DNA of 64,000 nt from an uncultured Winogradskyella sp. (GTDB taxonomy: Bacteria > Bacteroidota > Bacteroidia > Flavobacteriales > Flavobacteriaceae): the NCBI RefSeq assembly GCF_947498005.1, contig NZ_CANMIW010000002.1:310001-374000 (forward strand), read 5' to 3'. Each line of letters starts with the position of its first letter. Position 1 is the stretch's first letter. Below the pieces are notes generated by a model. That model worked only from the letters and a program-made list of their open reading frames with translations. It ran no database searches and had not been told where the DNA came from. Below are positions 46,367 to 64,000 of this stretch, in pieces. The position numbers and the translations under genes were made by a program.

Positions 46367-49300
46367 ATGAAAACAAAATTCAGTTTATTGTTAATGCTGT
46401 TTTTTTCAATTTGTGCTTTCGCTCAGCAGATTGAGATTAGCGGAATTGTAACAACCGAAAGTGATGGGATGCCTTTGCCAGGAGCAAATGTCCTAGTACA
46501 AGGAACAAGTAGAGGTACTACAACAGATTTTGATGGTAAATTTACTATTAAAGTAACTTCAGGAGAACGCGTTGAGTTTAGCTACATTGGCTTAGAGACT
46601 CAAGTAATAGTAATTGAGAACCAAACAGAGCTAACAATTATTCTAAAAGATGACGTAGCTTCATTAAATGAAGTCGTTGTAATAGGTTATGGTACTCAGA
46701 AAAAAGAAGATTTAACAGGTGCAATTACTACAGTGAAGTCTGATGACATTGAAAAAACACCTAACAGTAACGTAATGCAATCTTTACAAGGTAAGGTTGC
46801 AGGTGTTCAAATTACAAGCAGTGGTTCTCCAGGAGGATCACCAAATGTGAGAGTAAGAGGTGTAAACTCTTATTTAGCAGGTAATAATCCATTATATGTT
46901 GTGGATGGTATGTTTTATGACAACATTGATTTTCTAGATTCAAGTCAAATTGAAACCATCTCTGTTTTAAAAGATGCTTCGTCTATTGCTATTTTTGGAC
47001 AAAGAGGTGTAAATGGTGTTATTATCGTTGAAACAAAAAATGGTAAATTAGAACAAAAACCTGTATTTACTTACACAGGTTATTCAGGGTTTCAAAATGC
47101 TCAGAACGTTGTCAAAATGGCTAACGCAGAGCAATTTGTTACTATGGCTTATGAGTCAGGATCACAAGCAGATATTGAGTTTGTAGAAAATGCCATTCAA
47201 CGTTATGGAAGAAGTAGAGTAAACCCTAATATTCCAGACGTCAACACAGACTGGTATAAAGAAGTATTGCGTGTGGCTCCAATTACTAGTCATGGAATTG
47301 GTGTAACAGGTGGAACGGAAAATACAACTTACGGTGTTAATGCTAACTATTTTTCACAAGATGGAATATTAGATATGAAAAATGAATACGAACGTTTCAA
47401 TATTCAATCTAATGTAGAGATAAAACTTTCTGATCGTATTACTGTAGGTACAAATGCTATTTTTAGTAATGCTACACAGTACAATCCTGAAAATGGTGCA
47501 TGGTTTCAGGCGTATTTTGCGGTGCCAATATTACCAGTTTATGATTATGTAAATACTGAAGCAGATCCAATTGCTTTTTCAGATGCAACAGCATTAGGTT
47601 ATCGTGGATCTCAAAATCCGTTTCCTGCAATGACTTTTAATGATAATCAGGTTAAAACCAGAAAAGTTTTAGCAAGTATGTTCTTAGAAGTAGATATAAT
47701 CACAGATAAACTAAAGTTTAAAACAGCTTATAGCCATGATTATTCTACAGTTTCTGAGCGAAATGTAAGATTACCATTTTTTATATCAGAAAATTCACAG
47801 CGTGAGACGTCTTCTATAAGACGAGCTGAATTAAAATTTTCTAATCAATTATGGGATAATACATTGACGTTTAAAGATAGTTTTGGCAATCATAATGTAA
47901 CCGTAATTGCCGGTACTTCATATCGCGATGATCAATTCAATACGTTTTCGGCAACAGGTAATGATGTTCAAGGAATTGGTCTTGAGAGCTCATGGTATTT
48001 AAATTTTGCAGATCCTACAACCTTCAGTAATCAAGTTAATGAAATAGGTGATAGGTTTTATTCATTTGCGCTTTTTGGTAGGTTAGAATATAGTTACAAG
48101 GATAAGTATTTATTAAATGCTACACTTAGACATGAAGGTGATGGTAGATTCCCAAAGAAGTTATGGGAAACAACACCATCAGTAGGTCTAGGTTGGGTAA
48201 TATCTAAAGAAGATTTCTTTGAAGAGAACAACCTTTTTAATTTTTTAAAATTAAGAGCTTCTTGGGGAAAATTAGCTAACGGATCATTAGGTGGAAGTAC
48301 AGGTACTAGAACGGTATCACAAGTAGTAACCGATATAGGAGATATACCTACAAATGGAATTTTAACGACAAATACGTTTCAAAACTTACGAAGAGAAATC
48401 TTGGAAGAAATGAATTTTGGTATTAGCTCACGTTTATTTGATAATAAATTAAGTTTAGAATTAGATTATTACATCAGAGATACGGAAAATCTAGTTTTAC
48501 CACGAGAAGTGCCTATAACAGCAGAAGTGGTAAATGATAACATTGGCGAAATGAGAAACCAAGGTTTAGAAATAGCTGCTAATTGGAGTCAAACCATAAA
48601 TGATAATTGGAGTTTTTCTATTGGTGGAAATATTGCAACTTTAAAAAACGAAGTTACTCAGATAAATAGCGAGCAAGGATATTTTGATACCGGAAGTGCA
48701 GAATTTCGTCAAAGGCTTATTGTAGGTGAACCTGTCAATGCCTTCTTTGGTTGGGAAGTAGCTGGTGTATATCAAAATGATGAGCAAATTGCATCTAGTG
48801 CTACAGCACAGTGCGAATTAACGGAAAATAACAACGAATTAGTTCCAGGGGATTTTATCTATAAAGATCAAAATAATGACGGAAAAATTGATGCAGATGA
48901 TAGAGTTGTTTTAGGTTCATATTTACCAACGTTTAATTATGGTGGTAACATTAATGTAGCTTACAAAAACTTTGATTTTTCTGTTGCTATTTCTGGTCAA
49001 ACAGGAAATAGTATTCTAAATAGAAAAAGAGGTGAAGTTATCTTTACTAATGATACAAATGTTGATGCAGAATTCGCAATTAACAGATGGCATGGTGAAG
49101 GAACTACGAATTCATTCCCATCATCAGAAGGTCGCAGAAAGGCTTGGAATCAAAAAATGAGTAGCTTCTTTGTTGAAGATGGCGCTTATTTCAGAGTTCA
49201 AAACATACAATTAGGTTATAGAATTCCCTCAAGCAGTTTTAAAGGGAAATTTTCGCCAGATGTTAAGGTAACTCTTACTGCTGAACGACCAATTACAATT

Positions 49301-49402
49301 TTTGATTATAATGGTTTTAATCCTGAAGTGGCAAATGGAGTAGATCGTCAAACCTACCCAGTACCAGCGGTTTATACTTTAGGAGTTAACATTAAAATAT
49401 AA
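46367..49402 (+). CDS. SusC-like TonB-dependent glycan importer
   Basis: The 1011-residue protein has a signal peptide (about 1-19, ending in CAFAQ), a carboxypeptidase-like regulatory domain (GIVTTESDGMPLPGANVLVQG to EFSYIGLETQ), a TonB box-plug region with NEVVVIGYGTQKKEDLTGAITTV and IETISVLKDASSIAIFGQRGVNGVI, and a 22-strand barrel ending in YTLGVNIKI. These are the marks of the SusC/RagA family. With SusD it forms the pedal-bin importer of oligosaccharides. It is the first gene of the PUL; susD follows after 15 bp. Confidence 0.95.
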   Translation: MKTKFSLLLMLFFSICAFAQQIEISGIVTTESDGMPLPGANVLVQGTSRGTTTDFDGKFTIKVTSGERVEFSYIGLETQVIVIENQTELTIILKDDVASLNEVVVIGYGTQKKEDLTGAITTVKSDDIEKTPNSNVMQSLQGKVAGVQITSSGSPGGSPNVRVRGVNSYLAGNNPLYVVDGMFYDNIDFLDSSQIETISVLKDASSIAIFGQRGVNGVIIVETKNGKLEQKPVFTYTGYSGFQNAQNVVKMANAEQFVTMAYESGSQADIEFVENAIQRYGRSRVNPNIPDVNTDWYKEVLRVAPITSHGIGVTGGTENTTYGVNANYFSQDGILDMKNEYERFNIQSNVEIKLSDRITVGTNAIFSNATQYNPENGAWFQAYFAVPILPVYDYVNTEADPIAFSDATALGYRGSQNPFPAMTFNDNQVKTRKVLASMFLEVDIITDKLKFKTAYSHDYSTVSERNVRLPFFISENSQRETSSIRRAELKFSNQLWDNTLTFKDSFGNHNVTVIAGTSYRDDQFNTFSATGNDVQGIGLESSWYLNFADPTTFSNQVNEIGDRFYSFALFGRLEYSYKDKYLLNATLRHEGDGRFPKKLWETTPSVGLGWVISKEDFFEENNLFNFLKLRASWGKLANGSLGGSTGTRTVSQVVTDIGDIPTNGILTTNTFQNLRREILEEMNFGISSRLFDNKLSLELDYYIRDTENLVLPREVPITAEVVNDNIGEMRNQGLEIAANWSQTINDNWSFSIGGNIATLKNEVTQINSEQGYFDTGSAEFRQRLIVGEPVNAFFGWEVAGVYQNDEQIASSATAQCELTENNNELVPGDFIYKDQNNDGKIDADDRVVLGSYLPTFNYGGNINVAYKNFDFSVAISGQTGNSILNRKRGEVIFTNDTNVDAEFAINRWHGEGTTNSFPSSEGRRKAWNQKMSSFFVEDGAYFRVQNIQLGYRIPSSSFKGKFSPDVKVTLTAERPITIFDYNGFNPEVANGVDRQTYPVPAVYTLGVNIKI

Positions 49403-49417
49403 TAAAAAAAGCTAAAC

Positions 49418-50953
49418 ATGAAAAATTTAAAACAAGTAACAAAACAGCTGGCTTTAATGTTGGCGGTCTTTACAGCATTCTTTGCTTGTACAGATAAATT
49501 AGAAGAAAACGACGGACAACTGGCTGCAGATGATTTAGATTTAACCATTTCAGAAGATATGATTCTTCCACTTATTGGTGCATATTCAGCAGTTTATTCT
49601 AGAGGATGGGAAGATCCTTTATTAATAGGTGTGAGAGGTGATGATGTAAACGCAGGTGGATTAGGAGATCAGCCGCAGTTTGCAGATACAGATCTATTTG
49701 TATACGACAATGGATTTTGGATGTACAACCAAATATGGGAAAACTTTTATGGAGACATAGTAAGAATTGTTAGTTCACGAGAAACAATTCAAAATTATAA
49801 AGATTTTGCTATAGGAGATTACGTTGATAAAGCAGACCAATATATGGCAGAGTGTAAAGTGTTAAGTGGATTTACACATTTTCAAATGTCAAGATTATGG
49901 GGAGATATTTTTATCATTAACTCATCTGATATTACATCAGAATTAGAGAATGGAGTAAAAACTAAAGCTGAGGTAATGCAATATATATCGGATTTAATGG
50001 ATGAAGCAATTCCGTTTTTGCCAAATCAAAGACCTAATGAAAGAGAAGATGTCTCTGCAGGCGTAACTAAATATACGGCATTAGCAATTAAAGCTTTAGC
50101 AAATTTAGAATTAGAGAATTACCAAGGTGTAGCAGATGCAACTAGCGAAATTATAAGTTCAGATAAGTTTAATTTATATCCAGATTTTTACGAGTTGTTT
50201 AAAAAGCCTGGCGAAAGAAGTAATGAAAACCTTTTTGAGCTTCAATTCTCAGATTACAATACAGAATCAGGAGCTACAAACAATCACTTATATGCGCCAT
50301 TTGGACCTTCTAGTTGGACACCTGCAGTCTCAACAGCTTCTGGAGGATGGGGTTTTTATGAGCCAAGTTTAAAGTATATCAAGTTTATGATTGATAGAGG
50401 TGATCAAACAAGGTTAGTAACTAGTGTGAATTTTACACCAAGAGGAATGGATGAATTAATGTTAGATCCTAATTATGCTACCTTACCTAGCTATATTTCT
50501 AATACAACATTAGATGGCGATATATTTAACGATTATCCTAGGGCTATGTTTGGTAGTGGTAAACACTATTTACCATCAAACCAATTAACACCTGGTAGAA
50601 ATAGTTATGGCTCAAGTAAGAATTTCATTGTAATTAGATATGCAGAAATATTATTAATGCATGCAGAAGCACTGACACAAGGAGCTACTAGTTCTGCGAT
50701 GACAGCAGATCAAGCTGTTAATATGGTAAGAGGAAGAGTCGGAATGCCTTCACTTACTGGTGTAACAAATGACCAAGTTATGGATGAAAAATTTGCTGAA
50801 CTTGGTATGGAATGGGGTGTTCGTTATTTTGATATGATTCGATTAAATAAATATGACGAATTAAGCTACGATGGCAGAACTTTTACCGCAGATAAAGAGC
50901 TTTTACCTTATCCGCAGAATCAATTGGATTTGTTACCACTTAATAACAATTAA
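49418..50953 (+). CDS. SusD-like surface glycan-binding lipoprotein
   Basis: The 511-residue protein has a lipoprotein signal with Cys24 (AFFACTDK), the helical TPR-like SusD core (MWEN-type segments such as YNQIWENFYGDIVRIVSS and LSGFTHFQMSRLWGD) and the C-terminal RagB/SusD part (NFIVIRYAEILLMHAEAL and LGMEWGVRYFDMIRL). It forms the lid over the SusC barrel and binds the glycan. It lies 15 bp after susC and 11 bp before the next lipoprotein gene, so the three are one transcript. Confidence 0.95.
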   Translation: MKNLKQVTKQLALMLAVFTAFFACTDKLEENDGQLAADDLDLTISEDMILPLIGAYSAVYSRGWEDPLLIGVRGDDVNAGGLGDQPQFADTDLFVYDNGFWMYNQIWENFYGDIVRIVSSRETIQNYKDFAIGDYVDKADQYMAECKVLSGFTHFQMSRLWGDIFIINSSDITSELENGVKTKAEVMQYISDLMDEAIPFLPNQRPNEREDVSAGVTKYTALAIKALANLELENYQGVADATSEIISSDKFNLYPDFYELFKKPGERSNENLFELQFSDYNTESGATNNHLYAPFGPSSWTPAVSTASGGWGFYEPSLKYIKFMIDRGDQTRLVTSVNFTPRGMDELMLDPNYATLPSYISNTTLDGDIFNDYPRAMFGSGKHYLPSNQLTPGRNSYGSSKNFIVIRYAEILLMHAEALTQGATSSAMTADQAVNMVRGRVGMPSLTGVTNDQVMDEKFAELGMEWGVRYFDMIRLNKYDELSYDGRTFTADKELLPYPQNQLDLLPLNNN

Positions 50954-50964
50954 AAAATAAGAAA

Positions 50965-52707
50965 ATGAAAAATATAAAAACATACATATTTGCATTAACG
51001 GCTTTGCTAATGTTAGGTTCTTGTTACGAAGGGATTGATCCAATCACAGCGGTAGATCCAGGTAACGATGTTGGAGCACCAGTTATTTCTATTGTAAAAC
51101 CAAGTGAAGGTTTTGAGATACAAGTGCCAGAACCAGTGACTTCAACAGCAATAGAGTTCAGAGTAGAAGATGACATTGAAATTATGTCAGTTTCTGTAAG
51201 TCTAGATGGACAAGTTATTGCAGCTTTCGATTCATTTTTAGACTATAGAATTTTTAATAGTGAATTTGTTTACGATAACATTACAACTGGTGAACACGTA
51301 TTACAAGTTACTGCTGTAGATATAGTAGGGAATGAAACTATAGCAACGTCAAATTTTAGTAAAGAACCACCTTATACACCACTTTTTAGTGGAGAAACAT
51401 TTTACATGAATTTTGATGGTAGTTATACTGAATTGGTAACAGTTACGGATGCTACAGAGGTTGGTATGCCAAGTTTTGCTCCAGAAGCTCGTGTGGGTTC
51501 AGGTGCTTATGCTGGTGCTACAGATTCTTATTTAACATTCCCGACAAGTGGATTGTTAGGAAATCAATTTAGTGCTTCATTTTGGACCAAAGTTAATGCA
51601 GATCCAGACCGTGCAGGTGTCTTAGTTATTGGGCCACCAGATGATGCAAATCCTGATGCCCAAAATAACAGAACAAGTGGATTTAGATTATTTAGAGAAA
51701 ATGCAGGAGGCATGCAACGTTTTAAGCTTAATGTAGGTAATGGTACTGCAGATTCTTGGTTTGATGGAGGTACTGATGCAGATGTAGACCCAACAACAGA
51801 TGAGTGGGTACACATTGCATTTACTATTTCAGAATCTGAAGCGGTTGTTTATATCAATGGAGAAGTCGTAAAGCAAGGCACATTAGATGGTGGAGTTGAT
51901 TGGACTGGTTGTGATGTGCTATCTATAATGTCTGGTGCTCCAAGGTTTTCAGGTTGGGGACATGAATCTGATAGTGGTTATATGGATGATTTAAGATTAT
52001 TCAATATCGCTTTATCACAAGATGAAATTGTTGGAATGATTGCGCAAAGTGACGAAATTTTTAAACTAGGGTTTAATGGTAGTTATACCGATAGTTACAG
52101 TGATGAAGATTGTACAGAAGTAGGAAACCCTTCTTATACAGGATCTAGTGATGCTTATGAAGGAAATAATGCTTATTTAGGTGCAACTGATTCGTATTTA
52201 ACTTTCCCAACAGCTGGCTTACTAAACGAAGAGTTTTCTGCAGTGTTTAGATACAAAGTAAATGAAACGCCAGATAGAGCAGGTATTTTAGTAATAGGTC
52301 CACCAGATGCGGATAATCCAGATGCTCAAAACAATAGATCTAGTGGTTTTAGGTTATTCCGAGAAAATGCAGGTGGATTACAAAGAATAAAATTAAATGC
52401 AGGTAACGGCACAGCCGATTCTTGGTTTGATGGTGGTGCAGACGCAGATATTGATCCTACAAGTAACCAATGGCATCAAGTCGCGTTTACAATATCAGCT
52501 ACAGAATGTGTTGTATATATTGATGGTGTTGTGGTAAAACAAGGCGAATTCTCAGGTATAGATTGGACGGATTGTGATGTGTTATCTATAATGTCTGGAG
52601 CACCAAGATTTACAGGATGGAATCATAATTCCGATGAGAGTGCAATGGATGATTTAAGAATATTTAAAAAAGCACTTTCTCACACAGAAATACTTTCAAT
52701 GCTATAA
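50965..52707 (+). CDS. Surface lipoprotein with Ig-like domain and two tandem LamG domains
   Basis: The 580-residue protein has a lipoprotein signal with Cys20 (MLGSCYEG), an Ig-like domain (about 35-135, with EFRVEDDIEIMSVSVSLDG) and two Laminin-G-3/concanavalin-like domains (about 145-355 and 362-575). The two domains are close copies, sharing AGATDSYLTFPT, RAGxLVIGPPD, DAQNN and GFRLFRENAGG. It holds the place of SusE/SusF-type surface glycan-binding proteins after susD. Binding of the substrate polymer is likely; no catalytic residues are evident. Confidence 0.85.
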   Translation: MKNIKTYIFALTALLMLGSCYEGIDPITAVDPGNDVGAPVISIVKPSEGFEIQVPEPVTSTAIEFRVEDDIEIMSVSVSLDGQVIAAFDSFLDYRIFNSEFVYDNITTGEHVLQVTAVDIVGNETIATSNFSKEPPYTPLFSGETFYMNFDGSYTELVTVTDATEVGMPSFAPEARVGSGAYAGATDSYLTFPTSGLLGNQFSASFWTKVNADPDRAGVLVIGPPDDANPDAQNNRTSGFRLFRENAGGMQRFKLNVGNGTADSWFDGGTDADVDPTTDEWVHIAFTISESEAVVYINGEVVKQGTLDGGVDWTGCDVLSIMSGAPRFSGWGHESDSGYMDDLRLFNIALSQDEIVGMIAQSDEIFKLGFNGSYTDSYSDEDCTEVGNPSYTGSSDAYEGNNAYLGATDSYLTFPTAGLLNEEFSAVFRYKVNETPDRAGILVIGPPDADNPDAQNNRSSGFRLFRENAGGLQRIKLNAGNGTADSWFDGGADADIDPTSNQWHQVAFTISATECVVYIDGVVVKQGEFSGIDWTDCDVLSIMSGAPRFTGWNHNSDESAMDDLRIFKKALSHTEILSML

Positions 52708-52754
52708 TAGTATTGTCTTTAAATAAGATATTTTGTTTGAATTAGTCTTTATAC

Positions 52755-52791
52755 CTTTAGCTGTATTTGTCTATGATAAATGCAGCTAAAG
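52755..52791 (+). other. 14-bp mRNA hairpin between the binding-protein and enzyme genes
   Basis: ctttagctgtattt pairs with aaatgcagctaaag (one G-U wobble) around a nine-base loop, 47 bp after the LamG gene stop and 19 bp before the first GH144 ATG. It is followed by tttatctaaatttt, not by a clean T-run. It could weaken read-through or protect the upstream mRNA end. Confidence 0.6.
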
Positions 52792-52810
52792 TTTATCTAA
52801 ATTTTAGTAA

Positions 52811-54184
52811 ATGAAAAAATCAAAACATATACATTTTGTGATTTTGATAACTGGGCTATTACTCATATTTTCTTGTAGTAATACCAATACCACCAAAGAA
52901 TTAAGTGAAGCTATACAAGAAGAAAGTGAGTCTTTTAATGAAGAGCTTCTAGATAAAGTTCAACATCAAACATTCAACTATTTTTGGGAAGGTGCAGAGC
53001 CTAACTCAGGTTTGGCCAGAGAGCGTATTCATATGGACGATAAGTATCCATCATCTCCAAAAAATACAGTAACAACAGGTGGAAGTGGATTTGGACTAAT
53101 GGCTATATTGGTTGGTGTAGAAAGGGGTTGGATAACTAAAGAACAAGCTATAAGTAGGTATCATAAAATAGTAAGTTTTTTAGCTAAAGCCGATCGTTTT
53201 CATGGTGCTTGGCCACATTGGATCAATGGAGAAACAGGTAAAGTTTACCCTTTCGGAAAAAAGGATAACGGTGGAGATTTAGTTGAAACAGCTTTTCTGA
53301 TCCAAGGATTACTTACCGTTTCTGAATATTTTAAAGGAACCAATCCTGAAGAATTAGAACTTAGAGATAAAATAGATAAATTATGGAAAACAGTTGAATG
53401 GGATTGGTATACAAAAAATGGAGAAGATGTTTTATATTGGCATTGGTCGCCTGAATATGAATGGGAAATGAATTTTCCAGTTGGTGGTTATAATGAATGT
53501 TTAATAATGTATGTACTCGCAGCTGCTTCTCCTACACATTCAATTAAAAAATCTGTATACGATAAAGGTTGGGCACGTAACGGAAATATTATTTCTAAAG
53601 ATTCAATGTATAATTTACCTTTGGTTTTAGATTATTTTGAACATAACGAGGCACAAATAGGACCCCTTTTCTGGGCACACTATTCATACTTAGGATTAGA
53701 TCCCAATGGGCTTTCAGATCAATATGCAGATTATTGGGAGCTCACTCAAAACCATGCTAAAATTCATTATAAATATGCGGTAGAAAATCCTAAAGAATAT
53801 AGAGGTTACGGCGAAAATCTTTGGGGACTAACATCGAGCTATTCAATAAAGGGGTATTCGGGTCATAGACCAGGAGCAGATTTAGGCGTTATCTCGCCAA
53901 CAGCAGCACTTTCTTCATTTCCATATACACCAAAAGAGAGTATGCAAATGCTAAAATATCTATATAAAGAACAAGATTCTTTAATTGGCAAGTATGGACC
54001 TTATGATGCCTTTAGCTTGCATGACAAATGGAGCAAACCAAGGTACTTAGCAATAGATCAAGGGCCAATTCCGGTAATGATAGAGAATTATAGAACTGGC
54101 TTATTGTGGAATTTGTTTATGAGCAATACAGATGTCAAAGCAGGCTTAGATAAACTAGGCTTTACTTACACTATAAGAGATTAA
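52811..54184 (+). CDS. GH144-like glucanase (glucoamylase-like family PF10091), lipoprotein
   Basis: The 457-residue protein has a lipoprotein signal with Cys22 (LIFSCSNT) and an (alpha/alpha)6-barrel domain recognised by FNYFWEGAEPNSGLARER, VTTGGSGFGLMAILVGVERG, RFHGAWPHWINGETG, KKDNGGDLVETAFLIQGLL, YWHWSPEYEWEM, and GPIPVMIENYRTGLLW. This is the family formerly called glycoamylase-like; its characterised bacterial members are endo-beta-1,2-glucanases of GH144. It would cut the polymer on the cell surface or in the periplasm. It is the first enzyme of the PUL, 103 bp after the LamG gene and two bases before its paralogue. Confidence 0.85.
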   Translation: MKKSKHIHFVILITGLLLIFSCSNTNTTKELSEAIQEESESFNEELLDKVQHQTFNYFWEGAEPNSGLARERIHMDDKYPSSPKNTVTTGGSGFGLMAILVGVERGWITKEQAISRYHKIVSFLAKADRFHGAWPHWINGETGKVYPFGKKDNGGDLVETAFLIQGLLTVSEYFKGTNPEELELRDKIDKLWKTVEWDWYTKNGEDVLYWHWSPEYEWEMNFPVGGYNECLIMYVLAAASPTHSIKKSVYDKGWARNGNIISKDSMYNLPLVLDYFEHNEAQIGPLFWAHYSYLGLDPNGLSDQYADYWELTQNHAKIHYKYAVENPKEYRGYGENLWGLTSSYSIKGYSGHRPGADLGVISPTAALSSFPYTPKESMQMLKYLYKEQDSLIGKYGPYDAFSLHDKWSKPRYLAIDQGPIPVMIENYRTGLLWNLFMSNTDVKAGLDKLGFTYTIRD

Positions 54185-54186
54185 AT

Positions 54187-55545: not shown

Positions 55546-55555
55546 TAACATATAT

Positions 55556-56353
55556 ATGAAACATTTTATTTCTTTTTTTTCATTGGTATTATTTACTTCA
55601 TTTTGTTCGTTAAACGCACAAGAAGGAAAATCATCTAAAGATCTATTTTCTTATGAAGCGCATGTTGTAGATTCAGATACTTTAAATTATAGAATGCTTT
55701 TACCTGAAAACTTTGATGAATCAAAAACATATCCTTTGGTGTTATTTCTTCATGGTGCAGGTGAGAGAGGGGATAATAATAAAAACCAACTTGTGCATGG
55801 TAGTAGTTTATTTTTAAATGAAACCACTAGAGATTCATTACCTGCAATTATAATATTTCCTCAATGTGCTAAAGGTGATTATTGGTCTAAATTTGAAGCT
55901 GATCGTACTACAAAACCAATTACTTTCAAATATAAATACAATGATAATCCTACTACAGCGATGGCTTTAGTAATGGATTTAATGGATAACATGGTAAGCC
56001 AACCATTTGTAAAAACAGACCAAGTTTATGTAATGGGTTTGTCAATGGGTGGCATGGGAACTTTTGAAATTTTATATCGCAAACCCAAAATGTTTGCAGC
56101 AGCAATTCCTATTTGTGGAGGTGGTGATCCAGAATCCGCAGTATCCTATGCAACAGATGTACCTTTATGGATAATTCATGGTGCTAAAGACGATGTTGTT
56201 GATCCTAAATTATCTCTAAGTATGGCGTCTGCAATACTGAGTGCAGGCGGATTTCCTAAATTGACCATCTACGATTTTGCAAATCATAACAGTTGGGATC
56301 CTGCTTTTGCCGAACCAGAATTATTAACATGGCTTTTTTCAAATTCTAAATAA
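55556..56353 (+). CDS. Exported serine esterase/hydrolase, prolyl-oligopeptidase-like alpha/beta fold
   Basis: From the ATG at 55556 the product has 265 residues with a signal peptide (about 1-20, ending in SLNAQ). The alpha/beta-hydrolase fold has the oxyanion segment LFLHGAGERGDN, the nucleophile serine in GLSMGGMGTFE, an aspartate in HGAKDDVVDPK and a histidine in FANHNSWDP, completing a triad. This is the group of carboxylesterase/phospholipase-like enzymes common in PULs. It may remove acyl groups from the glycan. A longer frame begins at 55529 inside the previous gene's end and lacks a signal peptide. Confidence 0.82.
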   Translation: MKHFISFFSLVLFTSFCSLNAQEGKSSKDLFSYEAHVVDSDTLNYRMLLPENFDESKTYPLVLFLHGAGERGDNNKNQLVHGSSLFLNETTRDSLPAIIIFPQCAKGDYWSKFEADRTTKPITFKYKYNDNPTTAMALVMDLMDNMVSQPFVKTDQVYVMGLSMGGMGTFEILYRKPKMFAAAIPICGGGDPESAVSYATDVPLWIIHGAKDDVVDPKLSLSMASAILSAGGFPKLTIYDFANHNSWDPAFAEPELLTWLFSNSK

Positions 56354-56359
56354 ATTAAA

Positions 56360-58699
56360 ATGACAAATCAATTGACTTCAAAATTCGTAATTCTTGCAAT
56401 TATTACGTTGATTTTTACAAGTTGTAAAACTGAAACTAATTCTGCGCAGTCCTCTTCGGTAGATAAAAATCCATATGCAGCTCAAGTAGATTCTATTTTA
56501 GCCCTTATGACTTTTGAAGAGAAAATAGGTCAACTAAATTTACCTGTATCTGGAGATATTACAACTGGTCAGGGAACAAGTTCTAACGTAGGTAAAAAGA
56601 TAAAAGACGGTTTAGTTGGTGGTATGTTTAATATTAAATCTGTTGAAAAAATAAAAGCAGTTCAAAAAATTGCTGTTGAGGAAAGTAGACTGAAAATTCC
56701 ATTACTATTTGGTATGGATGTTATACATGGTTATGAAACAACATTTCCTATTCCCTTAGGTTTGTCTTCTTCTTGGGATTTAGAATTAATTGAAAAAACA
56801 GCTCGCATGGCAGCAACTGAAGCTAGTGCAGATGGTATTAATTGGACATTCTCTCCTATGGTAGATATTTCTCGCGATCCACGTTGGGGAAGAGTCTCAG
56901 AAGGCAACGGTGAAGATCCTTACCTAGGAAGTAGAATTGCTGAAGCTATGGTAAAAGGATATCAGCAAGATGATTTAAGCAAAAATAACACGCTAATGTC
57001 ATGTGTAAAGCATTTTGCGTTATATGGCGCGTCAGAAGCTGGCCGAGATTATAATACGGTTGATATGAGTAAAATAAGAATGTATAACGAATATTTAGAG
57101 CCTTATAAAGCAGCAGTAGATGCTGGTGTTGGTTCAGTTATGGCATCTTTTAATGAAATTGACGGTGTGCCAGCAACAGGAAATAAATGGTTATTAACAG
57201 AATTATTAAGAGATGATTGGGGATTTAATGGATTTGTTGTTACCGATTATACTGGTATTTATGAGATGATGGCTCACGGTATGGGTAGCGAAGAACAAGT
57301 TGTTTCTCAAGCACTAAACGCAGGTATAGACATGGATATGGCTGGCGATTCGCGAGTTGCTTCAGCCGCCTTTATAAAATCTTTAAAAGGTGCTTATAAT
57401 AAAGGATTGGTATCTATGGTAGAAATTGATACTGCTGTAAAACGTATGTTAACCGCTAAATATGAGCTAGGATTGTTTGAAGATCCATACAAGTATTGTG
57501 ATTCAGAAAGAGCAAAAAAGGAGGTGTTTACAACCGAAAATAGAGCTTTTGCTAGAAAAGTAGGTGCAGAATCTATGGTGTTACTTAAAAATGAGAATAA
57601 TCTTTTGCCGTTAAAAAAAGAGGGAACGATTGCACTAATCGGACCATTAGCAAATAATGCAGTAAATATGGCAGGTACTTGGAGTGTAGCGACACAACAA
57701 GAAAAATCTAATCCGTTCCTGTCTGGCTTAAAAACGATTGTTGGTAATACAGCTAATATACTTTATGCAAAAGGAAGTAATATTGATTATGACCTAGAGC
57801 TTGAAAAAAGAGCCACCATGTTCAATAAAGATATACCAAGAGATGGTAGAACAGATCAGCAACTTTTAGATGAAGCTTTAAGTATTGCAAAAAAAGCTGA
57901 TGTCATTATTGCAGCTATTGGAGAATCAGCAGAGTTTAGTGGAGAAAGTAGTAGTAGAACAGAAATAGGAATTCCTCAAGTTCAAAAAGATTTATTGAAT
58001 GCACTTTTAAAAACAGGTAAACCTGTAGTTCTAGTTTTATTCACTGGTAGACCTTTAGAATTGGTTGAAGAAAATGAAAATGTACCAGCAATTCTTAATG
58101 TTTGGTTTCCTGGCAGTGAAGCAGGTTTGGCAATTTCAGATGTGTTATTTGGCTATGTAAATCCATCAGGTAAATTAACTGCAACATTTCCTAGAAGTGT
58201 AGGGCAAATTCCAATTTTTTACAATCATAAAAATACAGGAAGACCTTTATCGAATGAAGAAGGGAAATTTGAAAAATTCAAGAGTAATTATATTGATGAG
58301 CGTAATGAGCCTTTATATCCATTTGGTTACGGATTAAGCTACACTAAATTTGATTATTCTAATTTCAATATAAGTAACCATTCTATTACCATGGATGGAA
58401 CGATCGATGTTTCTGTAGATGTAACAAATTCTGGTAATTATGATGGAAAAGAAGTTGTGCAACTCTACATTAGAGATGTTGTTGGCTCTGTAACACGACC
58501 GTTGAAAGAATTAAAAGGCTTTCAAAAAATTGAAATTAAAAAAGGAGAAACTAAATCCGTTACATTTAAATTATCAGTTGAAGACTTAAAATTTTATAAT
58601 TCGAATTTAGATTTTGTTGCGGAACCAGGAAAATTTCATGTATTTGTAGGTACAGATTCTACAACTAAGATGATGAAAGAATTTGAACTGACTAAATAA
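56360..58699 (+). CDS. GH3 beta-glucosidase (BglX-type), lipoprotein
   Basis: The 779-residue protein has a lipoprotein signal with Cys22 (IFTSCKTE), an (alpha/beta)8 N-domain with the nucleophile Asp296 in GFVVTDYTG, the KHFALYGASEAGRDY segment, an (alpha/beta)6 C-domain with the acid/base region GESAEFSGESSSRTE, and a fibronectin III-like end (ELKGFQKIEIKKGETK). GH3 enzymes of this layout remove terminal beta-linked glucose from oligosaccharides. It follows the esterase by six bases and precedes the second GH3 gene by six bases. Confidence 0.93.
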   Translation: MTNQLTSKFVILAIITLIFTSCKTETNSAQSSSVDKNPYAAQVDSILALMTFEEKIGQLNLPVSGDITTGQGTSSNVGKKIKDGLVGGMFNIKSVEKIKAVQKIAVEESRLKIPLLFGMDVIHGYETTFPIPLGLSSSWDLELIEKTARMAATEASADGINWTFSPMVDISRDPRWGRVSEGNGEDPYLGSRIAEAMVKGYQQDDLSKNNTLMSCVKHFALYGASEAGRDYNTVDMSKIRMYNEYLEPYKAAVDAGVGSVMASFNEIDGVPATGNKWLLTELLRDDWGFNGFVVTDYTGIYEMMAHGMGSEEQVVSQALNAGIDMDMAGDSRVASAAFIKSLKGAYNKGLVSMVEIDTAVKRMLTAKYELGLFEDPYKYCDSERAKKEVFTTENRAFARKVGAESMVLLKNENNLLPLKKEGTIALIGPLANNAVNMAGTWSVATQQEKSNPFLSGLKTIVGNTANILYAKGSNIDYDLELEKRATMFNKDIPRDGRTDQQLLDEALSIAKKADVIIAAIGESAEFSGESSSRTEIGIPQVQKDLLNALLKTGKPVVLVLFTGRPLELVEENENVPAILNVWFPGSEAGLAISDVLFGYVNPSGKLTATFPRSVGQIPIFYNHKNTGRPLSNEEGKFEKFKSNYIDERNEPLYPFGYGLSYTKFDYSNFNISNHSITMDGTIDVSVDVTNSGNYDGKEVVQLYIRDVVGSVTRPLKELKGFQKIEIKKGETKSVTFKLSVEDLKFYNSNLDFVAEPGKFHVFVGTDSTTKMMKEFELTK

Positions 58700-58705
58700 T
58701 TTAAA

Positions 58706-60925
58706 ATGAAATTAAAACCTCTTTACATTGTTGTTATAAGTTGTATTCAGATCAGTTTTGCTCAAAATTATGAGACTAAAGTAGATTCATTAATGCAATT
58801 AATGACACTACAAGAAAAGATTGGTCAAACCACAATGTATAGCGGAAATTGGGATCAAACAGGTCCATTTGTAGGCTCGGACAATGGAAAATATATTCGG
58901 GAAGGCAATATGGGAGCAATGCTAAATGCGATGTCTGTAAAGGGTACACGTGATTTACAAAAGATTGCAGTTGAAGAATCTCGTTTAGGTATTCCATTAT
59001 TGTTTGGTTATGACGTTATCCATGGTCATCGTACAATTTTCCCAATCAATTTAGGCTTGTCCGCAAGTTGGGATTTAAGAATGATTGAAGAAAGCTCACG
59101 AATAGCTGCTGAGGAAGCATCTGCGGAAGGAATTCATTGGACATTTGCACCAATGATTGATGTTTCTAGAGAGCCACGTTGGGGAAGAATATCAGAAGGT
59201 GCGGGTGAAGATGTATATCTTAATAATAGAATTGCAGAGGCTTATGTAAAGGGATTTCAAGGCGATGATTTATCACAACACAATACTATTTTAGCGTGTG
59301 CTAAACATTATGTCGCTTACGGAGCTGCCCAAGCAGGTAGAGATTATCATACTACAAATATGGGTGAAGGTGAATTGCGAAATGTATATTTACCGCCTTT
59401 TAAAGCCGCTGTTAACGCTGGTGTAGAAACTTTTATGTCTGCATTCAACGAGTTGAATGGTGTGCCAACATCTGGTAATAAATTCACTTTAAGAGATATT
59501 CTAAGAGATGAATGGAAGTTTGATGGTTTTGTAGTTTCAGACTATACTTCGATTAATGAAATGATTAATCATGGTTTTGCAAAAGATAGTATTGATGCCG
59601 CAAAAATAGGAATGAATGCTGGTGTAGATATGGATATGGTAGGTGACGTTTATCGTTTGCATCTTCAACAATTAATAGAAGATGGAAAGGTGTCAGAAAC
59701 TTACATAAACGATGCTTGCAAAAGAATCCTTATGGCAAAATATAAGCTTGGTTTGTTTGATGATCCATACCGTTATATCGATGAAAAAAGAGAGGCAACA
59801 ACAAAATACAGACCAAAATTTTTAGCAAAAGCTCAAGAAATAGCTTCAGCATCTTCGGTATTGTTACAAAATAAAAATGAGACCTTACCGCTTTCTAATA
59901 CCACAAATACAATTGCTTTTATCGGACCTTTAGTAAAAGATAAAGCAGATATTCTAGGTAATTGGGCAGCAAAAGGTGACAGGTATGGTAAGGCTATAAG
60001 TATTTTTGAAGGACTCTCAGCGTATTTAAAACCAGAACAAATCCTATTCGCAAAAGGATGTGATATTTTAACGGATGACGAATCTGGATTTGAAGAGGCC
60101 ATAAAGATTTCTAAACAAGCAGATGCTATTGTTTTAGTAATGGGTGAAGATCATCACATGAGTGGAGAAGCGGCTTCTAGAACCGATTTAAAAATACCTG
60201 GAATTCAGCCTAAATTGATTAGGAAAATTCGTGAAGCAAATCTTACTAAAAAAATTACTTTGGTTTTAATGAATGGTCGTCCATTAAATCTGTCTAAAGA
60301 AGTGGAACTGGTAGATGCTATTCTAGAAATTTGGTTTCCAGGGACAATGGGTGGCGCAGCTACTGCAGATTTGCTATTTGGAAAAGTGAATCCTTCAGGT
60401 AAATTAACAGTTACTTTTCCTAGGAATGTTGGGCAAGTTCCAATTTATTACAACATGAAAAATACAGGAAGACCAATACCAGAACACTGGCCAAAGGCAG
60501 ATTATAAGAGTAATTATATAGATGTCGCTAATACACCTTTGTTTGCTTTTGGGCATGGTTTAAGCTACACCAGCTTTAAATATTCAGAATTAAAATTATC
60601 TTCGGAAACATTGACGTATTCAAATGCAATTGAAGCCAGTATTGAAGTTTCAAATACAGGTAAATTTGATGGTTATGAAATAGTTCAACTTTATATACAT
60701 GATAAAGTAGGAAGCGTTACAAGACCTGTTAAAGAGCTAAAAGGCTTCGAAAAAGTCTTCTTAAAAAAAGGACAAACTAAAACGATAACATTTACTATTA
60801 CTGTTGAAGATTTAAAATTTTACAACAGTGAAATGACATATGGTGTGGAAACGGGCGAATTTGAAATTGCCATAGCTCCACACTCAGACTTTAAATTTAA
60901 ACACGCATTTAACCTTATAGATTAA
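58706..60925 (+). CDS. GH3 beta-glucosidase, second copy, periplasmic
   Basis: The 739-residue protein has a signal peptide (about 1-19, ending in QISFAQN) without a lipobox, so it is probably soluble in the periplasm, in contrast to the lipoprotein GH3 before it. It has the same domains: nucleophile Asp279 in GFVVSDYTS, KHYVAYGAAQAGRDY, HHMSGEAASRTDLKIPG in the C-domain and a fibronectin III-like end (ELKGFEKVFLKKGQTK). The two proteins are clear paralogues. Differences in localisation suggest cleavage at different stages of oligosaccharide uptake. Confidence 0.93.
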   Translation: MKLKPLYIVVISCIQISFAQNYETKVDSLMQLMTLQEKIGQTTMYSGNWDQTGPFVGSDNGKYIREGNMGAMLNAMSVKGTRDLQKIAVEESRLGIPLLFGYDVIHGHRTIFPINLGLSASWDLRMIEESSRIAAEEASAEGIHWTFAPMIDVSREPRWGRISEGAGEDVYLNNRIAEAYVKGFQGDDLSQHNTILACAKHYVAYGAAQAGRDYHTTNMGEGELRNVYLPPFKAAVNAGVETFMSAFNELNGVPTSGNKFTLRDILRDEWKFDGFVVSDYTSINEMINHGFAKDSIDAAKIGMNAGVDMDMVGDVYRLHLQQLIEDGKVSETYINDACKRILMAKYKLGLFDDPYRYIDEKREATTKYRPKFLAKAQEIASASSVLLQNKNETLPLSNTTNTIAFIGPLVKDKADILGNWAAKGDRYGKAISIFEGLSAYLKPEQILFAKGCDILTDDESGFEEAIKISKQADAIVLVMGEDHHMSGEAASRTDLKIPGIQPKLIRKIREANLTKKITLVLMNGRPLNLSKEVELVDAILEIWFPGTMGGAATADLLFGKVNPSGKLTVTFPRNVGQVPIYYNMKNTGRPIPEHWPKADYKSNYIDVANTPLFAFGHGLSYTSFKYSELKLSSETLTYSNAIEASIEVSNTGKFDGYEIVQLYIHDKVGSVTRPVKELKGFEKVFLKKGQTKTITFTITVEDLKFYNSEMTYGVETGEFEIAIAPHSDFKFKHAFNLID

Positions 60926-60935
60926 TAGCTGCTCT

Positions 60936-63539
60936 ATGCCACACTCAATTAATAATATTAAATCCCTTTGTTTGTTTCTTGGTGTGGTTTTTACATGCCT
61001 TAGTTTTTCTCAATCTATAACTATAAATTCTGGTTGGCACTATTCTGAAAACAATACGGAATGGCAAACCGTTAATATTCCACACACATGGAATCAATTA
61101 GATGCCTTTGATGATACATCTGGTTACAGACGCGGATTAGGTTACTACAAAAAGCAAATTTTTATTTCTTCTACAGAAAAAGAAGAGGTTCATTATTTAA
61201 AATTTAATGCTGTTAACCAAGAAGCAACGGTCTTTTTAAATGGTAAAAAAGTTGGAAGTCATAGAGGAGGTTACACAGCTTTTGTTTTTAATATTTCTGA
61301 ATATATTAAATACAACACAGTTAATTTAATAGAGGTAACCGTAGATAATTCTCATAATGAAGATATTCCACCTCTAGATGCCGATTTTACGTTTTATGGA
61401 GGTATATATCGCGATGTAGAACTAATTGCCTTACCAAAACAGCATTTTAGTTTAGATGATTTTGCTTCGGATGGATTTTATATTAATTACCCGCAGGTTT
61501 CTGAGGAGAATGCAACTGTTGAGGTTACAGGGCTTCTAAATAATTTAAGCAAGAAAAAGGAAAAGGTTGTTGTGCAATTTACCTTGTTTGATGCTGAAGG
61601 TAGTATTGTAAATACGCATTCTGAAAAATTAAAATTAAAGTCACAATCTAATAACAAATTTGTGGTTACGCTCCCAGTAGTGAATACGCCAAAACTATGG
61701 TCGCCAGATAATCCTTATTTATATAAATTACAAATGAGTCTTCAGGATAGTGAAGGTGTAACTTTAGATTCAAAATCATCAAATATCGGTTTTCGTTGGG
61801 CTTCTGTAGATCCCAAAAAAGGATTTTTCTTAAACGGAAAACCTATTAAACTCATAGGTGTTAATCGTCATCAAGATTATGAGAATTATGGAAATGCAGT
61901 TCCGCTTTCACTTCAAAAGGAAGATATAAATATCATTAAAGAAATGGGTTCTAATGTCATTCGTTTTGCACATTATCCACATGCTAGGGAACTTTATGAT
62001 AAATGTGATGAATTGGGTATAATCGTTTGGACGGAAATTCCTATTGTAAATAAAGTAACAAATTCTGAGTCTTTCTTTGCTACATCTATTAACATGCAAA
62101 AAGAGCATATAAAACAATATTATAACTATCCATCTGTAATAATGATGGGTTATATGAACGAGATCTTTTTAGGCCTAGCTTTTGATAAAAAAGAATCTGA
62201 AGAGGAAAAAGAAGCACGTAAAATATTTACCTACGATCTTGCAAAACAGTTAGAAGACTTAACCAGAAAAGAGGCGCCAAACCATATCACTGTGATGGCG
62301 CTACATTTTAATGAACTTTACAACGAAACTAAGATAGCAGACCTATCTATGCTAGTGGGTTGGAATTTGTATTTTGGGTGGTATCATGATAAAATAAAGG
62401 ATCTAGGTGTTTTTTTAGATGATCAGCATCAACGCTTTCCTAATCGGTCACTTTTGGTTTCAGAATATGGGCCAGGTGCTGACGTGCGTGTTTCAGCAAC
62501 ACATCCTTCTCGATATGATTATTCTCAAGAATACCAATTATTGCTGCATTCTGGCTACGTAAATCAAGTAACAGAACGCGAATTTGTTTCTGGTATGACG
62601 GCTTGGAATTTTGCGGATTTTGGTTCAGAATTTCGTGGAGAAACAAAGCCACATATTAATCAAAAAGGATTGGTGCAATATAATCGTGAACCTAAAGAAA
62701 TTTATCATTGGTATCAATCAGTTTTAAAAACTGAAACACCGTCTGTTCATGTGGCTAATTATTTAAAAGATATCACATTGGTAGATACAGATGCACACGA
62801 AATTGTAGTGTTTTCTAATCAAGAAAAAGGTCAACTATATGTAAATGACAATTATATTAAAGATATCAATTTTGAAACTGGCATTGCAAAAGCAACTGTA
62901 AGTTTTAATGAAGGAATAAACACCGTTAAAGTTGAGACAAAAAACGCATCACATTCAACGGACTTTAACGCTAAAATTATAAAGAGCCTAGAAAGTAATA
63001 CTGTAGACAAGTTAGCTATTAATGTTGGTACACATATTAGTTTTAGAGATGAGGTGTTGGGAACCACTTTTATAAGTGACAGATCATATTCTCAAAATTT
63101 ATTTGGTTATGTCACCGATTCAGGAAAATGTAAAAGAAAATTAATTCCTTTTAATGTTTCTAACACCATTAATGACGCTGTCTATCAAACCGTTCTCTTA
63201 GATTGTAATACCTACAAAGTAGACTTGGCTGATGGATCCTATAAAGTGACTTTATATTTTGTAGAACCTGAATTAAAAAATAAAACTAAAGTACTTTTTA
63301 ATTTAACAACAGACACAGACAATTCAGAAGCAGATTTAATGCATCGCATTTTTGATATTAAATTGAATGATAAAAAAATAGCAAATCAATTTAATATGGC
63401 AAAGGAATATGCAGATAAATACGGCATAGAACATTCTGCAAAAGTAAATATTGCTAATAATGAAGGTTTAACAATTTCGTTAAACCCTATTAAAGGCGAA
63501 ACAGTTATGAGTGGAATTTTAATAGAAAAAATAGACTAA
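60936..63539 (+). CDS. GH2 glycoside hydrolase with C-terminal malectin-like domain
   Basis: The 867-residue protein has a signal peptide (about 1-26, ending in LSFSQ), an N-terminal sugar-binding jelly roll (IPHTWNQLDAFDD, FLNGKKVGSHRGGYTAF), an Ig-like domain and a TIM barrel with the acid/base Glu409 in MGYMNEIF and nucleophile Glu510 in LLVSEYGPG. The last about 180 residues read as a malectin-like carbohydrate-binding domain (AINVGTHISFRDEVLG, then DGSYKVTLYFVEPE). GH2 covers beta-galactosidases, beta-glucuronidases, beta-mannosidases and others; the residues seen do not decide between them. Its place in a beta-glucan PUL suggests a side-chain or terminal sugar. Confidence 0.9.
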   Translation: MPHSINNIKSLCLFLGVVFTCLSFSQSITINSGWHYSENNTEWQTVNIPHTWNQLDAFDDTSGYRRGLGYYKKQIFISSTEKEEVHYLKFNAVNQEATVFLNGKKVGSHRGGYTAFVFNISEYIKYNTVNLIEVTVDNSHNEDIPPLDADFTFYGGIYRDVELIALPKQHFSLDDFASDGFYINYPQVSEENATVEVTGLLNNLSKKKEKVVVQFTLFDAEGSIVNTHSEKLKLKSQSNNKFVVTLPVVNTPKLWSPDNPYLYKLQMSLQDSEGVTLDSKSSNIGFRWASVDPKKGFFLNGKPIKLIGVNRHQDYENYGNAVPLSLQKEDINIIKEMGSNVIRFAHYPHARELYDKCDELGIIVWTEIPIVNKVTNSESFFATSINMQKEHIKQYYNYPSVIMMGYMNEIFLGLAFDKKESEEEKEARKIFTYDLAKQLEDLTRKEAPNHITVMALHFNELYNETKIADLSMLVGWNLYFGWYHDKIKDLGVFLDDQHQRFPNRSLLVSEYGPGADVRVSATHPSRYDYSQEYQLLLHSGYVNQVTEREFVSGMTAWNFADFGSEFRGETKPHINQKGLVQYNREPKEIYHWYQSVLKTETPSVHVANYLKDITLVDTDAHEIVVFSNQEKGQLYVNDNYIKDINFETGIAKATVSFNEGINTVKVETKNASHSTDFNAKIIKSLESNTVDKLAINVGTHISFRDEVLGTTFISDRSYSQNLFGYVTDSGKCKRKLIPFNVSNTINDAVYQTVLLDCNTYKVDLADGSYKVTLYFVEPELKNKTKVLFNLTTDTDNSEADLMHRIFDIKLNDKKIANQFNMAKEYADKYGIEHSAKVNIANNEGLTISLNPIKGETVMSGILIEKID

Positions 63540-63617
63540 AAATTCTGGTAAAACCACTAAAATCTAACAGGAAAAATAAAATAAGTAATGGCATGTAATT
63601 TGATAAAACATAGAGAA

Positions 63618-64000
63618 ATGAAGAACCTATTAATTATAATGCTATCAATTTTCACATTCGGTCTTTCCTCACAAAATAAGGAAACATATATCTATTCTAT
63701 AAAAGGAAACGACACCCTGAAATTGGATGTCTTTACACCAAAAAACATAAAAAAAACGGATTCATTACCTGTGTTGCTTTGGATGCATGGTGGCGGGTTT
63801 CAGGGTAGTCATAGAGCGCATCCTGTAGATAGTAAGTTAGTAAAACATGTCGCAAAACATAAAAATTACATTGGTGTATCTATTGATTATCGTCTTTTAA
63901 GAAAAGATAAAGCGACAGGTTTTGGTTGCGATTGCACCAAAGATGAAAAATTAGAAACCTTTAAACAAGCCACCATAGATTTTTTAGATGCTGCTAAATT
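63618..64000 (+). CDS. Exported alpha/beta-hydrolase (esterase), cut by right edge
   Basis: The open frame starts at ATG 63618 and runs to the edge, 127 residues without a stop. It has a signal peptide (about 1-20, ending in GLSSQN) and the start of an alpha/beta-hydrolase fold: LKLDVFTP, the HGGGF oxyanion motif in LLWMHGGGFQGSH, VSIDYRLLRK and a DCTKDE region before a helix. This HGGGF type is that of carboxylesterase/acetyl-esterase (BD-FAE-like) proteins. The catalytic serine and histidine lie outside. It is 78 bp after the GH2 gene and continues the PUL. Confidence 0.82.
   Translation, partial: MKNLLIIMLSIFTFGLSSQNKETYIYSIKGNDTLKLDVFTPKNIKKTDSLPVLLWMHGGGFQGSHRAHPVDSKLVKHVAKHKNYIGVSIDYRLLRKDKATGFGCDCTKDEKLETFKQATIDFLDAAK

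Follow-up and report, generated by a model that had tools for sequence, protein, structure and literature searches.

The window analysed here, a 64,000-nucleotide stretch of DNA from an uncultured Winogradskyella sp., ends inside a gene cluster (L004) that extends 4.9 kb beyond it. The cluster is headed by a sensor-regulator of the LuxR type (43321..46113, + strand), which has a C-terminal LuxR/GerE helix-turn-helix, a weak match to Y_Y_Y (18.2 bits; cut-off 26.6) and a long N-terminal part without a Pfam match over cut-off. Because a homologue directly adjoins SusC on its 5' side in 20/20 upstream stretches of related loci, we count this regulator as a member of the locus; it is the probable activator. 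A DASS-type transporter (41740-43182) was considered as the sulfate/succinate transporter of the locus, has no homologue in any of the 20 upstream stretches, and is treated as a neighbour.

Downstream, and likewise on the + strand, lie genes for a SusC-type TonB-dependent outer-membrane importer (46367..49402; TIGR04056, 791.7 bits), a SusD-type surface glycan-binding lipoprotein (49418..50953; PF07980 and PF14322), a LamG lipoprotein with Big_7 and two Laminin_G_3 domains in Pfam (50965..52707), two GH144 lipoproteins, GH144a (52811..54184; PF10091, 263.9 bits) and GH144b (54187..55545; PF10091, 264.2 bits), and a secreted alpha/beta-hydrolase esterase (55529..56353; PF00326, PF02230 and PF00756), which likely starts at the in-frame ATG at 55556. 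These are followed by a GH3 lipoprotein, GH3a (56360..58699), a second and predicted secreted GH3 beta-glucosidase, GH3b (58706..60925), a GH2 enzyme with a C-terminal malectin domain, assigned from Pfam, NCBIfam and solved relatives (60936..63539), and a second esterase of the BD-FAE type in Pfam (63588..64502, cut at the window end, 64000). In window numbering, but outside the window, the cluster continues with an S1_11-like sulfatase (64468-66210), a GH43 enzyme (66214-68061; Pfam) and an EEP phosphatase-like protein (68015-68887; Pfam). The preliminary description of this DNA had given the order from susC to the second esterase, and Pfam and NCBIfam bear out every gene that it named; its list was incomplete in lacking the regulator upstream and the genes beyond the window. 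It was also right that gaps are mostly below 20 bp, as five of nine junctions measure 2-11 bp (susD-LamG 11, GH144a-GH144b 2, first esterase-GH3a 6, GH3a-GH3b 6, GH3b-GH2 10), susC-susD measures 15 bp and GH144b overlaps the first esterase, the remaining two being LamG-GH144a (103 bp) and GH2-second esterase (48 bp). The genes appear to form one operon, and the recurrence of this set around GH144 in many genomes points to more than chance.

Both GH144-like proteins are true members of the family: each matches PF10091 over cut-off, and each resembles CpSGL, the endo-beta-1,2-glucanase of Chitinophaga pinensis (PDB 5gzh/5gzk), with 58.9% identity (583 bits) for GH144a and 54.7% (509 bits) for GH144b. 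All seven CpSGL residues checked (D135, D139, E142, E211, F268, Y330, and D400) are kept in the two proteins and in 238/238 aligned GH144 rows; E211 is the general acid and E142 the candidate base in the portion of PMC12102758 drawn on here. Hydrolysis of beta-1,2-glucan with inversion, the mark of GH144, is predicted for both. Whereas CpSGL is one enzyme, the locus holds two paralogues with differing lipoprotein signals. Placing them in a phylogeny with reference GH144 enzymes, as had been proposed, puts GH144a in a clade of 118 leaves and GH144b in another of 102, with 18 leaves (relatives and references) outside both, after removal of 30 identical GH144 proteins. Support is 0.625 at the 118-leaf node of GH144a, 0.998 at the node above it (one more leaf) and 0.98 at the node below (117 leaves), and 0.95 at the 102-leaf node of GH144b. 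The division of the two genes into separate paralogous clades is added by the present analysis.

The clades also differ in their export signals. With the lipoprotein surface-export signal as defined in PMC5080379, a surface-export-like signal (at least two acidic residues at +2 to +6) occurs in 59/83 scorable leaves of clade b vs 2/98 of clade a, a scorable leaf being one with a recognisable lipobox (the simple-pattern finder skipped 20/118 leaves in clade a and 19/102 in clade b). In the comparison proteins, which were not deduplicated, the signal is present in 57/68 SusD, 73/87 LamG and 2/66 GH3a sequences. GH144b itself reads C-G-S-D-D, and GH144a is without the signature. The difference in counts suggests that GH144b is an endo-beta-1,2-glucanase cutting at the cell surface and GH144a a beta-1,2-glucanase of the periplasm. 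Relatives of the LamG lipoprotein, like SusD, carry acidic residues after the lipobox cysteine, and this lipoprotein is probably a second surface glycan-binding protein.

The GH3 enzymes match PDB 3u48, PDB 5xxl (which we take to be BT_3567) and Lin1840, with 1093, 1035, and 576 bits for GH3a and 781, 714, and 545 bits for GH3b. Judged by these scores, GH3a is near the sophorose-active beta-glucosidase type of Bacteroides thetaiotaomicron BT_3567, and GH3b is a more distant member of that type, whose mark is a preference for sophoro-oligosaccharides. BT_3567 and Listeria Lin1840 are close in sequence to the enzymes of the locus, which carries two GH3; both also cleave laminaribiose at comparable speed, according to the part of PMC12369401 consulted. 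Together with the GH144 assignments, the similarity of GH3a to BT_3567 supports the beta-1,2-glucan backbone put forward in the preliminary description.

The best named sequence match of the sulfatase is BT4656 (with 522 bits to PDB 5g2v), and a fold search with an 80% identical orthologue ranks BT4656 and BT3177 at the top; in its own sequence and in the fold of that orthologue, the locus sulfatase is S1_11-like. The formylglycine site C-x-P-S-R is present as C-G-P-S-R at residue 101, as are the motifs F-D-K-R and P-A-F-H, in which D, K, R, and H do not vary across 35 orthologues aligned (entries of 867, 755, and 777 aa, with lengths from adjoining reading frames, were not used). These motifs hold the putative positions of the His/Asp/Arg triad that reads O3 and O4. 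FGE-type matches are present in the host genome, and such proteins could mature the sulfatases. By sequence, PDB 9s03 falls nearest to the locus sulfatase of Mariniflexile maritimum (83% identity); we found no paper on it, and it is absent among the 50 fold-search matches listed (PDB copy to April 2026). The S1_11 subfamily acts on 6-O-sulfate (PMC10154612). Its members' substrates are the 6-sulfates of GlcNAc/GlcNS and of L-galactose, and mannose-6-sulfate for one enzyme placed with them; the text of PMC13063451 seen, which does not use the code S1_11, assigns PbSulf2, a mannose-6-sulfatase, to one subfamily with 5G2V and 7LJ2. BT4656, BT3177, and PbSulf2 thus resemble the locus sulfatase in sequence, fold or subfamily, but sulfated beta-1,2-glucan is not among their substrates, and the sugar that bears the sulfate may be one other than glucose.

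Across genomes, the sulfatase keeps company with the GH144 pair. Of 397 genomes sampled from the host's own family, at least 107 have a GH144 match, and 80 loci were hand-picked from these (L017 and L060 are clipped by contig ends). Both GH144 clades are found in 50/80 of these loci, GH3a in 57/80, and an S1_11-like sulfatase near GH144 in 49/80, always on the GH144 strand, vs 1/40 loci of other groups. The comparison loci are shorter downstream (9.6-15.3 kb, counted from the first GH144 frame), yet 22 of the 40 would be expected to show a sulfatase after correction for length if they were like the own family, and own-family loci trimmed to the shortest comparison stretch still show one in 39/80. 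Where both clades occur, the sulfatase is present in 40/50 loci, with none in the stretch examined in 10/50. The best 80 of at least 573 candidate named loci, which overlap the own-family set so that the two are not independent, include a sulfatase in at least 41 cases with 10 kb downstream covered; 26/59 named loci with both clades lack one within 10 kb downstream. The most similar named loci among these best 80 come from the marine genera Winogradskyella, Meridianimaribacter, and Kordia. Within the 80 own-family loci, whose rows are related, the EEP gene accompanies the sulfatase in 22/49 loci vs 5/31 without it, and the second esterase in 27/49 vs 7/31; owing to this relatedness, p values for the two associations come out too strong.

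We consider it probable that the locus is a polysaccharide utilization locus (PUL) for a sulfated, esterified beta-1,2-glucan, and import and breakdown of such a glucan, with sulfate at the predicted C6 position, is the best reading of the genes. The preliminary description had proposed a beta-1,2-glucan or a decorated beta-glucan: the beta-1,2-glucan backbone and its decoration have support from sequence, and the plain form gives way to a sulfated one because of the genes for sulfatase, GH43, and EEP that lie a short way past the window end. In the route that we infer, the LuxR-type regulator would switch the genes on, SusD and the LamG lipoprotein would hold the glycan at the cell surface, GH144b, with a lipoprotein signal of the surface-export kind, would cut it there, and SusC would import the fragments. 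In the periplasm, GH144a would then shorten the fragments, the sulfatase would take off 6-O-sulfate, the two esterases acyl groups and the EEP enzyme phosphate, GH2 and GH43 would trim off side sugars, and glucose would be set free by the GH3 pair. Of the solved relatives of the EEP protein that carry a specific name, the nearest is a mannosyl-6-phosphatase (4c1r, 216 bits).

GH2 and GH43 speak against this reading, in that a pure glucan offers them no obvious role and the family matches of GH2 point to glucuronides or galactosides. They would fit a mixed heteroglycan in which beta-1,2-glucosyl units form stretches or branches and glucuronic acid, galactose or a pentose are regular constituents, one of them bearing the sulfate; an exopolysaccharide of algae or bacteria would be an example. 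The solved relatives of GH2 include chains labelled beta-glucuronidase or beta-galactosidase, and an N-Q-K-G motif is present in the window protein and in 27/28 full-length homologues listed, NxK being a mark of glucuronidases; the NCBIfam LacZ4 match lies below cut-off (482 vs 950 bits), and glucuronidase is a candidate assignment for GH2. GH43 has its D, D, and E motifs, presumably the catalytic residues, invariant in 33/33 aligned GH43 rows. Five loci from other families (L128, L149, L150, L151, and L158) have a GH43 that is 76-83% identical, although their GH144 is only 54-65% identical. A GH43 fold search (orthologue 82% identical, model pLDDT 76.7) ranked BT_3662 first at 18% identity, followed mostly by xylosidases and arabinofuranosidases, and these matches do not point to a substrate. 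However, GH2 (17/80) and GH43 (18/80 at ≥70% identity) are rarer in own-family loci than the GH144 pair, GH3a, and sulfatase, which makes the shared core resemble a pathway for glucan. Moreover, other-family loci L127 (36%), L160 (45%), and L165 (46%) have only a distant GH43, and no polysaccharide lyase was found by Pfam among the 14 proteins scanned; we consider the mixed heteroglycan unlikely.

Less likely again is a plain beta-1,2-glucan, linear or cyclic, as the main substrate, the sulfatase, EEP, and esterases then serving other glycans or being passengers. Non-marine GH144 PULs without a sulfatase are indeed counted as beta-1,2-glucan PULs (in the part of PMC6499787 available), and an S1_11-like sulfatase is absent from the stretch examined in 31/80 own-family loci. 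Against it stand the strand-matched presence of the sulfatase in the own family, at odds with the single case among the other groups, and its co-occurrence with EEP and the second esterase. Although LamG domains and GH3 occur in loci for laminarin or other beta-1,3-glucans, and relatives of the GH3 enzymes cleave laminaribiose, such a substrate is very improbable here, as the preliminary description had argued, because the GH16, GH17 or GH30 endo/exo enzymes that define laminarin PULs have no Pfam match among the 14 locus proteins scanned and both endo-enzymes are GH144 with beta-1,2-glucanase residues.

Clusters of this kind are widespread, ordinary in kind and already in print. With SusC/SusD beside GH144 and a sulfatase, the locus fits in gene content the marine sulfatase-bearing GH144 PULs noted by Lapebie et al. 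2019 (in the part of PMC6499787 consulted, which gives their composition); what the present analysis adds is the subfamily of the sulfatase, the pairing of two GH144 clades that differ in export signal, and the EEP, esterase, and GH43 accessories. A cluster of Maribacter dokdonensis 62-1 shares GH3, two GH144 (~50% identical to the C. pinensis endoglucanase), susCD, and a sulfatase with this locus, and both GH144 orthologous groups are present in all Maribacter and Zobellia compared; GH2, GH43, and EEP go unmentioned in the excerpt of that report (PMC8072126). The preliminary description remarked that the genes outnumber those of simple GH144-GH3 loci; this is not unusual, as most of the set recurs in related flavobacteria. 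In the literature as far as covered, we found no report of activity on beta-1,2-glucan for any enzyme of sulfatase-bearing GH144 loci, none identifying the natural polymer of such clusters, and, with terms that matched poorly, none of a sulfated beta-1,2-glucan. We note that the specificity of a GH144 neighbour can be unexpected: Bxy_22780, a GH35 enzyme encoded beside GH144, is a beta-1,2-galactosidase inactive on beta-1,2-glucooligosaccharides (PMC11739564, in the part seen).

More tentatively, the substrate of the locus and of its many relatives may be a widespread but undescribed anionic marine beta-1,2-glucan, akin to the osmoregulated periplasmic glucans of bacteria, with 6-O-sulfate and phospho-/acyl substituents on its glucose, handled by two specialised GH144 paralogues at the surface and in the periplasm. 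Were this possibility true, marine bacteria would feed on one another's glucans, periplasmic or capsular, and not on algae. Recycling of the organism's own glucan was considered and set aside: its genome has no match to the MdoG/OpgG family and so gives no hint of an opgGH-type pathway. With GH144 in at least 107/397 genomes of the family and the sulfatase in 40/50 two-clade loci, the polymer is probably common and, once named, would count as a further marine carbon pool. A concrete set of enzymes for identifying it is at hand in the paired GH144 paralogues, the 6-O-sulfatase subfamily, and the genes for EEP and the esterases.

Fourteen genes, the regulator counted, make up the locus, and their strand and spacing suggest one operon. 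The gene list of the preliminary description was borne out by gene calls, Pfam and NCBIfam. SusC (46367-49402) and SusD (49418-50953) lie on the forward strand. On the same strand, Pfam assigns a lipoprotein (50965-52707) that combines a Big_7 domain with two LamG stretches, the PF10091 proteins GH144a (52811-54184) and GH144b (54187-55545), a first esterase (55529-56353, likely ATG 55556), GH3a (56360-58699), GH3b (58706-60925) and a GH2 enzyme with a malectin domain (60936-63539). The forward-strand second esterase (63588-64502) crosses the window end, and the contig sequence beyond adds a sulfatase (64468-66210, likely ATG 64504), a GH43 enzyme (66214-68061) that also has F5/8 and fn3 domains, and a member of the EEP family (68015-68887, ATG probably at 68063), three genes that change the substrate prediction. 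Upstream of SusC is a LuxR-type regulator (43321-46113), for which Pfam also gives a weak match to Y_Y_Y; a homologue of it lies immediately 5' of SusC in 20/20 upstream stretches from relatives. The EEP gene is followed 3' by a SpoU methylase and then an opposite-strand gene that by eye resembles Rho.

The genome spans 3.88 Mb, and the window is part of its contig 2. Adjoining the regulator is a DASS-type transporter (41740-43182; PF00939, 273 bits), a homologue of which was absent beside related loci in all 20 stretches. Farther upstream, on the reverse strand, a 1612-residue protein (36590-41428) carries long, near-identical internal repeats; TRF reports two period-285 arrays in its gene, and a larger repeat is visible in the translation.

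CpSGL of Chitinophaga pinensis is the founding endo-beta-1,2-glucanase. In a search of solved structures it is matched by GH144a (583 bits, 58.9% identity) and GH144b (509 bits, 54.7%) across nearly their full length; the two are 55.6% identical to one another. The CpSGL residues D135, D139, E142, E211, F268, Y330 and D400 are identical in both proteins and in 238/238 aligned rows; E142 is considered the likeliest general base, and in related families the equivalent of E211 is treated as the general acid (PMC12102758). In a tree of 238 sequences, two clades distinct from one another and from CpSGL hold GH144a (118 leaves; node support 0.625, against 0.998 for the next node up, which adds one leaf, and 0.98 for the 117-leaf node beneath) and GH144b (102 leaves; support 0.95).

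The lipobox cysteine is followed by G-S-D-D-G in GH144b and S-N-T-N-T in GH144a. An acidic signal at the same place is reported for Bacteroidota surface lipoproteins, as K-(D/E)2 or Q-A-(D/E)2 in Capnocytophaga, SDDDD in B. fragilis and SDDFE in F. johnsoniae (PMC5080379). Among deduplicated members with a recognisable lipobox, which are kin rather than independent sequences, at least two acidic residues occupy positions +2 to +6 in 59/83 of clade b versus 2/98 of clade a, with a mean net charge of -1.5 versus +0.9. SusD (57/68) and the LamG lipoprotein (73/87) resemble GH144b in this respect, and GH3a (2/66) resembles GH144a. Because of these signals, GH144b would be expected to cut outside and GH144a inside the cell.

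The locus sulfatase contains the motif C-G-P-S-R, and its nearest solved chains are 9s03 (976 bits), 5g2v (BT4656; 522 bits) and 7p24 (BT3177; 521 bits). No paper on PDB 9s03 was found in the open-licence literature; the chain is 83% identical to the sulfatase of the Mariniflexile maritimum GH144 locus, and thus appears to be an orthologue from a locus of this type. An orthologue 80% identical to the locus sulfatase was modelled (pLDDT 83.6), and its nearest folds are BT4656 and BT3177 (S1_11), then an Akkermansia sulfatase and galactose-6-sulfatases. In beta-1,2-glucan, O3, O4 and O6 of each unit are free and the chain exits at O2; an S1_11 enzyme whose C2 side is open would therefore fit this polymer. 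S1_11 enzymes are described as reading O3 by a His and O4 by an Asp/Arg pair, with 6-O-sulfates as the targets known so far, and the part that recognises the N-acetyl group at C2 as absent from about half of them, aquatic members above all (PMC10154612). PbSulf2, a mannose-6-sulfatase, is described alongside the same solved members of the subfamily (PMC13063451).

PF10091 occurs in 107/397 sampled genomes of the host family Flavobacteriaceae (105 above the cut-off) and in 136/395 of a phylum-wide sample. Among 80 own-family loci, picked by hand from the matches listed, 49 carry an S1_11-like sulfatase (>400 bits), every one on the GH144 strand, versus one of 40 other-group loci (16 from one large genus of the same family, 6 from another family of the order, 18 from other families of the class), another of which has a weaker sulfatase (361 bits). 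The comparison stretches are shorter downstream, and the counts were recomputed for length. This contrast stands, since 22/40 would be expected at own-family rates (8.6/16, 3.3/6 and 10.1/18) and 39/80 own-family loci retain the sulfatase when cut to the shortest comparison stretch. By GH144 content, it is present in 40/50 own-family loci with both clades, 6/12 with a only, 2/6 with b only and 1/12 with neither. Among the best 80 by similarity of at least 573 candidates, a set that overlaps the own-family one and is not independent of it, at least 41/80 loci, and at least 33/59 with both clades, have the sulfatase within the 10 kb downstream covered. Most of these similarity-selected loci are from genera known to be marine; at least two, L108 and L125, to judge by their names presumably come from groundwater assemblies, and no S1_11-like sulfatase was seen within the short stretch examined there. 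In the 80 own-family loci, LamG (39/49 with the sulfatase versus 14/31 without), EEP (22/49 versus 5/31) and the second esterase (27/49 versus 7/31) accompany the sulfatase, and no clear association was found for the first esterase, GH3a, GH2 or GH43 at >=70% identity.

With 1035 bits to 5xxl and 576 to Lin1840, GH3a lies very near the BT_3567 type, for which cleavage of sophorose and laminaribiose at comparable speed is reported (PMC12369401); GH3b is farther from it. The nearest solved relatives of the EEP protein are 3mpr, a family member without a specific name (217 bits), and the mannosyl-6-phosphatase 4c1r (216 bits), a kinship that makes a C6 phosphate a possible target. In five GH144 loci of other families (L128, L149, L150, L151 and L158), GH43 is 76-83% identical to the present copy (in L128, L150 and L151 the alignment spans 574-575 residues) and GH144 only 54-65%, which may reflect either unusual conservation or transfer. 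Four further loci (L010, L031, L034 and L039) are of a different, GH144b-like type without an S1_11-like sulfatase, with GH43 at 73-77% and with GH2, the second esterase or both encoded on the other strand.

Elsewhere in the genome, 14/17 PF00884 sulfatase matches lie within ~53 kb of contig 1 (~242-296 kb), adjoined by the genome's strongest FGE-type match; this stretch is probably a large locus directed at a different sulfated polysaccharide.

Marine GH144 PULs with an extra sulfatase were described by Lapebie et al. (2019), who take them to suggest a sulfated polysaccharide that is ubiquitous in the sea but not yet known (PMC6499787). In Maribacter dokdonensis, genes for GH3, two GH144, susCD and a sulfatase are reported as grouped, and both GH144 groups in every Maribacter and Zobellia compared (PMC8072126). 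The locus is a member of this known marine, sulfatase-bearing kind: real, well formed and ordinary in type. The earlier proposal of a beta-1,2-glucan or decorated beta-glucan PUL had the backbone family right; the sulfatase, by which the locus belongs to the marine type, lies beyond the window end and was out of its sight. No paper identifying the substrate polymer of such loci was found in the open-licence literature. A family search of the host genome gave no MdoG/OpgG match. The osmoregulated periplasmic glucans of E. coli are described as having beta-1,6 branches on a beta-1,2 backbone and as bearing phosphoglycerol, phosphoethanolamine and succinyl substituents (PMC3818809). The presence of esterases, a predicted 6-O-sulfatase and a phosphatase-like EEP enzyme next to GH144 would be in keeping with a hypothetical marine, sulfated relative of these periplasmic glucans.
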